Source: an uncultured Lachnospiraceae bacterium (GTDB lineage: Bacteria > Bacillota > Clostridia > Lachnospirales > Lachnospiraceae). From it: DNA of 36,942 nucleotides. Positions 11,864 through 19,481 of this stretch are shown here, piece after piece (positions within the stretch are counted from its first letter, which is position 1; each line of letters begins with the position of its first letter). The notes under the pieces were generated by a model. That model worked only from the letters and a program-made list of their open reading frames with translations, searched no databases and had not been told where the DNA came from. The DNA is taken from NCBI GenBank assembly GCA_946411695.1, contig CAMKEX010000010.1, positions 1 through 36,942 of the forward strand, in the 5' to 3' direction. The position numbers were made by a program, and so were the translations under genes.

Positions 11864-12027
11864 GCATTTTTTGTGATGGATAAATGTGACGGATCCGACG
11901 GTAAAGTAGCGGACTTTCCTGTGTGCAGGAACTTTTTTGATGTGCGTCGGCGCTGCATGCCGCTTTGCACTTTGATGAGGCGGACCGGAAGATGATGCCC
12001 TTACAGGCATCCCGCAGGCGCGAACCC

Positions 12028-12110
12028 ATGCTGCTCATGGGCGCAGGACCCGCGGGCGGGTCCTGAATCTTCATCGCACAGATTTCGCGGGCGGATCCTG
12101 AAGTTTCCCG
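12028..12110 (+). promoter_or_regulatory. Hairpin-rich leader of the peptide transporter operon
   Basis: Two adjoining hairpins, CCCATG-CTGCT-CATGGG and CAGGACCCG-CGGG-CGGGTCCTG, are followed by a partial duplication GCGGGCGGATCCTGAA. That duplication can form CGCGGG...CCCGCG. No T tract follows, so these are not standard terminators. The GCGCAGGACC...CGGGTCCTGAAT part recurs at 19337-19359. No clear promoter was found between 11864 and 12178. Confidence 0.5.
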
Positions 12111-19171: not shown

Positions 19172-19250
19172 TTTTTTGAAAATGTCAAAAAAGACTAAAT
19201 CTTCGTCAAAATATTATCTATACTACAGGGCCGCATCATGATATTATCAT
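19172..19250. promoter_or_regulatory. AT-rich region with inverted repeats before the candidate RNA
   Basis: TTTTTTGA/TCAAAAAA with a 5-bp spacer (19172-19192) and a 13-bp palindrome ATGATATTATCAT (19238-19250) flank a TATACT hexamer (19219-19224). TATACT could be a -10 box for rightward transcription, but I see no good -35. The dyads could be operator sites, for instance for the AraC-type protein. Bases 19011-19171 hold nothing recognisable. Confidence 0.35.
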
Positions 19251-19470
19251 ATCGTCAGATGACAAACACACGCACTGCAGTAAAGCGTTTTATTTATACC
19301 GCGCAATGCCCGTGACGACAGTCCCGGGATCCGTGCGCAGGACCTTACGGGTCCTGAATTATAATCGGTTAGTGTAGTACGGAAGTACTTGCTAATATAT
19401 TACCCCCCTAAGCATCTTGTAACATCCCTTGAAAAACACCCGGCAGTTTATCCCGCTGCCGGGTGTTTTT
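19231..19470 (+). ncRNA. Candidate structured small RNA (unassigned family)
   Basis: No ORF is credible here, yet the sequence folds into successive helices. GCGCA/TGCGC closes an arm containing CCCG/CGGG. Then come CAGGACC/GGTCCTG, then TTAGTG-AGTAC closed by a GGAA tetraloop against GTACT-TGCTAA, then C-rich single-stranded stretches (ACCCCCCTAAG and ATCCCTTG), and finally a 15-bp-stem terminator. The next gene has a promoter downstream of this terminator, and the gene on the left is divergent. The terminator therefore most simply ends a separate transcript. The 5' end is a guess from a TATACT box. C-rich loops are typical of regulatory RNAs in Bacillota that pair with ribosome sites; a trans-acting role is inference. 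I do not recognise a known RNA family. Confidence 0.55.
19432..19470 (+). terminator. Strong intrinsic terminator of the candidate RNA
   Basis: AAAAACACCCGGCAG pairs perfectly with CTGCCGGGTGTTTTT (15 bp, 9-nt loop). It is symmetrical and could act in both directions, but no gene lies to its right on the minus strand. Confidence 0.9.
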
Positions 19471-19481
19471 CATGTTATGAA

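Follow-up and report, generated by a model that had tools for sequence, protein, structure and literature searches.

Two loci in a 36,942-nucleotide stretch of DNA from an uncultured Lachnospiraceae bacterium (the window) carry the same paired motif with different loops, which raises the question of what a leader and a small-RNA locus share. The hairpin of copy 1 reads GCGCAGGACC-CGCGGG-CGGGTCCTGAAT and ends at 12068, and that of copy 2 reads GCGCAGGACC-TTA-CGGGTCCTGAAT at 19335-19359. A sequence-only reading had described this motif and its stems at both loci. The sequence is indeed present, the predicted folds of both hairpins agree with that description, and the strict hairpin pattern occurs 0 times in 100 shuffles of the window. 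That reading had named two possibilities: the motif could be a conserved RNA structure, or it could belong to a dispersed repeat. In fact, each hairpin belongs to a separate copy of one dispersed repeat family and forms the right-end hairpin (hp2) of that copy. The repeat is near certainly a mobile dispersed repeat, of whatever kind, and we consider it likely to be a non-autonomous IS200/IS605-like element mobilised in trans. Genomes, contigs and loci are denoted here by G, C and L; G000 is the genome of the window, and all window features given below lie on the forward strand.

The genome search that had been proposed for the hairpin found more than two copies. The pattern GCAGGACC-N3-9-GGTCCTG has four matches genome-wide, and the reversed control has one. 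The four are the two window copies, an intergenic one on C164, and one in another context. The exact 23-nt hairpin of copy 1 recurs on C164 in an intergenic position. Allowing up to three mismatches to copy 1 raises the genome count to 14 versus 0 for the reversed control, and the left-end probe TTCATCGCGCAATACCCGTGAC at the same tolerance gives 35 versus 0. A covariance model (R1) built on 30 copies matches at least 62 times in G000 (3.7 Mb) and 24-74 times in each of eight related genomes, where the high counts are lower bounds. Two further genomes contain a handful of matches and five contain one each, and R1 has 0 matches in 46 of the 62 genomes of the genus. Scanning 84,980 species genomes with a 22-mer yielded 98 stretches, whose titles all name Lachnospiraceae MAGs apart from one "Eubacteriales" MAG and Sarcina sp. 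DSM 11001 (taken to be G029), a record of the same GTDB genus. The copies are found between genes in all orientations, with 143 of 154 (93%) being intergenic according to a crude gene caller. A preference for insertion behind terminators was considered and not adopted, as left flanks folding below -12 kcal/mol (29% vs 13% in the control, p = 0.04) give only a hint. No paper on repeats of this kind in Lachnospiraceae turned up in the literature searched. The family can be defined as a small mobile-DNA family of rumen and gut Lachnospiraceae that is apparently undescribed.

When read in register, the copies form one family with a modular build. The full element of ~200-245 nt consists of a left hairpin (hp1), internal modules, and the right hairpin hp2. 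Its 5' start is TCTTCATC-GCGC, and hp1 is a two-tier hairpin, GCGCAATA-CCCGTGAC-TTCA-GTCGTGGG-ATACGCGC. At the 3' end, hp2 (CAAGACTCG-CGAG-CGAGTCTTG) is followed by AA. With its flank, the left end is TTTAT|TCTTCATCGCGC, and the right end is ..GTCTTGAA. A subterminal hairpin is found at each end, namely hp1 and hp2, with a DNA folding z of -3.87. The region between hp1 and hp2 contains an optional AAAAAGGAAACTCGCTTCATCGTGGGTACAATCCCGCGATGAAGAATAAA and additional hairpin modules. Overall, the forms range from ~40 to 245 nt and include a 74-nt form, in which hp2 comes immediately after hp1, and ~40-nt forms, which have hp2 and the left end alone. The hp1 unit is tandemly repeated in some copies. 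Three copies contain head-to-tail junctions (TTGAA|TCTTCATC), consistent with the inferred ends. RUG13087 and other MAGs harbour a second subfamily, which retains the left end and hp1 unchanged, continues with GTAGCAACAAACTTGTCTTCATCGTGTAGTTCAAGCTCGCGATGAAGAATAAAAG, and is ~105 nt long with inverted ends (L100, L118, L146, L151, L160, L164, L182, and L191). In addition, a linker variant, AAAAGTCTTCGACGGAAACTCGC, recurs between hp1 and the next module in L103, L126, L149, L153, and L188.

Copy 1 (11980-12067) corresponds to the right half of a long-form element, with the module GGAAGATGATGCCC..GGGCATCCCGC, a CCCATG hairpin, and hp2; an 89-nt local alignment joins it to the right halves of the full-length copies at L178 and L181. 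The CCCATG-CATGGG hairpin module at 12025-12041 folds, also precedes hp2 in L153, L178, and L181, and is present in L250. It is followed by hp2 at 12044-12065 and by the right end AA at 12066-12067. Between copy 1 and the elements of other species, hp2 differs by compensatory changes (AAGACTCG/CGAGTCTT to AGGACCCG/CGGGTCCT). A second, short degenerate copy is arranged head-to-tail with copy 1 at 12068-12102 (..CCTGAA|TCTTCATCGC..GGATCCTGAA), as indicated by its sequence and the direct repeat, and L096 is arranged alike. Since copy 1 lacks the left end (hp1), it gives no clean boundary for its own insertion. Copy 2 is a diverged hp1+hp2 form of the 74-nt type at about 19294-19358 (R1 match at 19288-19358, 66.2 bits, E 1.5e-14), with TTTAT at 19289-19293 directly 5' of it. 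According to folding and the R1 match, its hp1 spans 19300-19337 with the outer stem CGCGC/GTGCG and the inner stem CCCG.GAC/GTC.CGGG. Its hp2, CAGGACCT-TAC-GGGTCCTG, occupies 19338-19356, and AA follows at 19357-19358. A GCGC...CCC(A/G)TG...GGG arm had also been reported before both hairpins. Such arms are present, but they are not the same part of the element: the arm in copy 2 is hp1, whereas that in copy 1 is the separate CCCATG-CATGGG module. An intrinsic terminator, defined as a GC hairpin with a T run, was also considered for hp2 and rejected. In the window copies and the further copies read, no T run lies 3' of hp2, and GAAT(C/T) follows instead.

The limits of the element are given by loci that lack it. 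The nearest genome, G011, is ~90% identical along the window and does not have copy 1 at the orthologous leader, where the window has an additional segment from 11992 to about 12108 (117 nt vs 17 nt in G011). Searches with joined flanks for empty sites gave two clean ones. At the first, a 245-nt element lies in G011 between CGTTTAT and TTTTATACG, and G000:C4 reads CGTTTATTTCAATACG (..CGTTTAT|TTCAATACG..). At the second, a 212-nt element lies in G010 between CATGTTTAT and ATAAAAGTG, and G008:C26 reads CATGTTTCAAAAACGTG (..CATGTTT|CAAAAACG..). Insertion occurred just 3' of TTTAT at the first site and of TTT at the second, and neither of the two has a target-site duplication. From these empty sites, the repeat starts after TTTAT, terminates at TTGAA, and duplicates no target. 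TTTAT is found at the left flank of 107 of the 183 copies located by hp1. A third site, in G014, also lacks the element and is more diverged. The comparison of L125 with G029 was discarded as an empty site owing to too great a divergence. Dozens of copies per genome, presence and absence at orthologous loci, and clean empty sites bear out the dispersed repeat that the sequence-only reading had offered as one of its two options.

The left hairpin connects the repeat to resident transposons. Y1-transposase loci of G018, G010, G011, and G027 have the left end AGCCGGCGCATT-CTCGTGAC-TTCA-GTCGTGAG-TTAGCCGGCT or a close variant. The inner stem of hp1, CCCGTGAC-TTCA-GTCGTGGG, differs from that of this IS605 left end, CTCGTGAC-TTCA-GTCGTGAG, by one base-pair exchange, and both hairpins share the shape of the outer stem and internal loop. 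In 1.8 Mb of fetched DNA, every occurrence of GTGACTTNAGTCRTG lies in a copy of the repeat or at the left end of an IS605, and four control palindromes have 0 matches there. The TnpA of these elements is an IS200/IS605 transposase (NF033573, 143 bits, with a cut-off of 55), and in the PDB it best matches 2xma, 2xm3, and 2xo6, which we take to be ISDra2 TnpA. The ISDra2-like IS605 elements (G018 L311, G010 L312, G011 L080, and G027 L313) thus resemble the repeat in the outer stem, the internal loop, and an 8-bp inner stem closed by TTCA. Their own 5' flank is also T-rich, and the empty sites of the repeat are without duplication. Unlike the repeat, the IS carries tnpA and tnpB, and its right-end hairpin has no resemblance to hp2. 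Moreover, the resident IS605 has the flank TTGAA and the right end TTCAC, whereas the repeat has the flank TTTAT and the right end TTGAA. Because both flank and terminus differ, the repeat is not just the resident IS605 with an internal deletion, and direct derivation by deletion was rejected. No transposase was found between the left and right ends of the repeat in the sampled loci, and none of 59 Y1-transposase loci has a good R1 match nearby. An autonomous copy bearing the repeat's own ends was not found in either set. In L044 and L163, the IS605 left end begins precisely at the right terminus of a repeat copy, since TTGAA is the flank used by the ISDra2-like IS605. An IS605 left end also lies at the TTGAA of the repeat in L318 (the end of G000:C35), where the contig breaks within the IS.

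Insertion 3' of a T-rich pentanucleotide, no target duplication, and end hairpins are the pattern of IS200/IS605 elements (PMC6006769, PMC7290912). TTTAT itself is among the listed flanks of IS200/IS605 group A IStrons, which also insert without duplication (PMC4227781). Because the repeat has a T-rich pentanucleotide 5' of its insertions, no duplication, and a hairpin near each end, an IS200/IS605-type engine is suggested. Movement is most likely driven by such a TnpA, and most likely by an ISDra2-like one. In the proposed mechanism, the repeat, which has no transposase gene, would move as a single DNA strand. An ISDra2-like TnpA acting in trans would recognise hp1 and the folded right end, excise the repeat, and, mostly in intergenic positions, insert it 3' of TTTAT with no duplication of the target. 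Copies would afterwards decay and shed internal modules. The target choice of IS200/IS605 can be altered via the element's own sequence (PMC5934647), and one TnpA could therefore serve both the resident IS605 and the repeat. IS200/IS605-derived MITEs and PATEs, such as the Halanaerobium PATE-like element, are likewise gene-less with hairpin ends, and the IS200/IS605 family itself lacks target duplication, as does the repeat (PMC7290912). In contrast to them, the repeat has 24-74 copies in most carrier genomes, a modular interior, and no parent found with the same ends. The family offers clean empty sites together with a candidate transposase. It is a case for how the ends of a single-strand transposase switch target (TTTAT vs TTGAA) yet keep the recognition hairpin, as well as for how such inserts get into sRNA genes and leaders.

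Other kinds of mobile repeat fit less well. REP/REPIN-type palindromes mobilised by RAYT (REP-associated tyrosine transposase) are also high-copy short intergenic palindromes (PMC6006769, PMC3116915), the repeat is intergenic and palindromic with tens of copies, and three RAYT-like Y1 proteins (open frames of 254-303 aa) are encoded in the genome. However, no repeat copy lies near the RAYT-like genes, which are surrounded by another palindrome, GGGGACGGTTC, and are also present in genomes without the repeat. The GT[AG]G tag located 5' of canonical REPs (PMC6006769) is missing as well. With neither the tag nor the RAYT flanks, a REP/REPIN origin was rejected as improbable. The RAYT-like Y1 loci L192, L193, and L194 (G000:C194, C39, and C113) and L195 (G011:C40) contain many GGGGACGGTTC palindromes, which constitute a separate repeat family. 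The repeat might instead belong to a different, unrecognised class of small mobile repeats, either BOX-like and modular or a MITE with terminal inverted repeats, with its likeness to IS605 at hp1 arising by convergence or capture. Pneumococcal BOX elements are short, modular, strongly folding repeats whose internal units are optional. The repeat is like them in modularity and folding, a resemblance in description only. Its modular make-up with internal repeats, the ~105-nt form with inverted ends (TTTATTCTTCATC..GATGAAGAATAAA), and ends unlike those of the resident IS605 speak for such a class. The identity of hp1 to the IS605 left end across the loop and inner stem and the absence of target duplication speak against it, and we regard it as unlikely, if less so than a REP origin.

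A conserved cis-regulatory RNA common to unrelated genes, such as a riboswitch, an attenuator, or a protein-binding leader, would explain why stable hairpins are retained in most copies. In the 30 copies, 91.5% of cells keep their pairing, versus 20-43% in slid controls. Double-sided changes occur in 12 cells versus 6.2 in shuffles (1/500), and copy 2 lies in a small-RNA locus and retains its pairing in G011. The double-sided excess in this 30-copy shuffle test is modest and can be produced by subfamilies. RNA selected on this strand is expected to tolerate G.U better than A.C. Departures from Watson-Crick pairing comprise 32 G.U and 33 A.C, and a second count gives 73 G.U and 94 A.C in an alignment that was fitted to the structure. 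Since G.U is no commoner than A.C, RNA-level selection is not supported. The covariation check that had been suggested therefore found pairing and some excess of double-sided changes but not the G.U preference of an RNA. Copy 1 is also missing from the ortholog in the nearest relative, copies lie between genes in all orientations, and there are clean empty sites. Searches of Rfam at gathering and E-value thresholds gave nothing relevant, and at the sRNA locus most sub-threshold matches coincided at least partly with the terminator hairpin. With no orthologous retention combined with G.U-tolerant pairing, the conserved RNA structure that the sequence-only reading had put forward is not supported, and we rejected it as the least probable of these explanations, very improbable in its own right. 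Conversely, the alternative that only two copies exist and that their pairing is not kept in relatives is not what was found. The pairing pattern is consistent with transposon ends that were copied from source elements in folded form and that decayed afterwards. The hairpin is probably a mark of mobile DNA and not a regulatory RNA common to both loci, which accounts for a repeated hairpin that can be mistaken for one.

Copy 2 is located 5' of a small-RNA gene and probably falls inside it. The conserved 3' part at 19368-19479 includes a TTAG..CTAA hairpin, the C-rich ATATTACCCCCCTAAGC, and a terminator hairpin, with 84-271 nt kept in nine genomes of the genus including G000. The gene as a whole (window 19253-19480) has a C-rich stretch, ATATTACCCCCCTAAGCATCTTGTAACATCCCTTGA, ahead of the strong terminator, has orthologs in eight other genomes of the genus, and matches no Rfam family. 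There is also a shorter paralog with a hairpin and terminator of its own (paralogs L031, at G000:C99:5867-5909, L030, and L032). Among the orthologs read, the insert is present in G000 and G011 only; the remaining orthologs have unrelated sequence there, often with hairpins too. The G011 ortholog of copy 2 (L018) scores 64 bits with R1, and hp1 at this locus differs between G000 and G011 by a compensatory change from GAC/GTC to GGC/GCC. With hp1 and hp2 kept there through such compensatory changes, the element might have been co-opted in these two genomes as the 5' folded domain of the conserved C-rich sRNA (19253-19480), which we think doubtful; if true, a bacterial sRNA would draw exchangeable structural modules from a mobile element. 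Between an AraC-type gene and the sRNA, GTCAAAAAAGACTAAATCTTTGTCAAAATATTATCTATAC (window 19184-19225 and L019-L025) is largely kept even where the 5' half of the sRNA is not, and it may be an operator or promoter.
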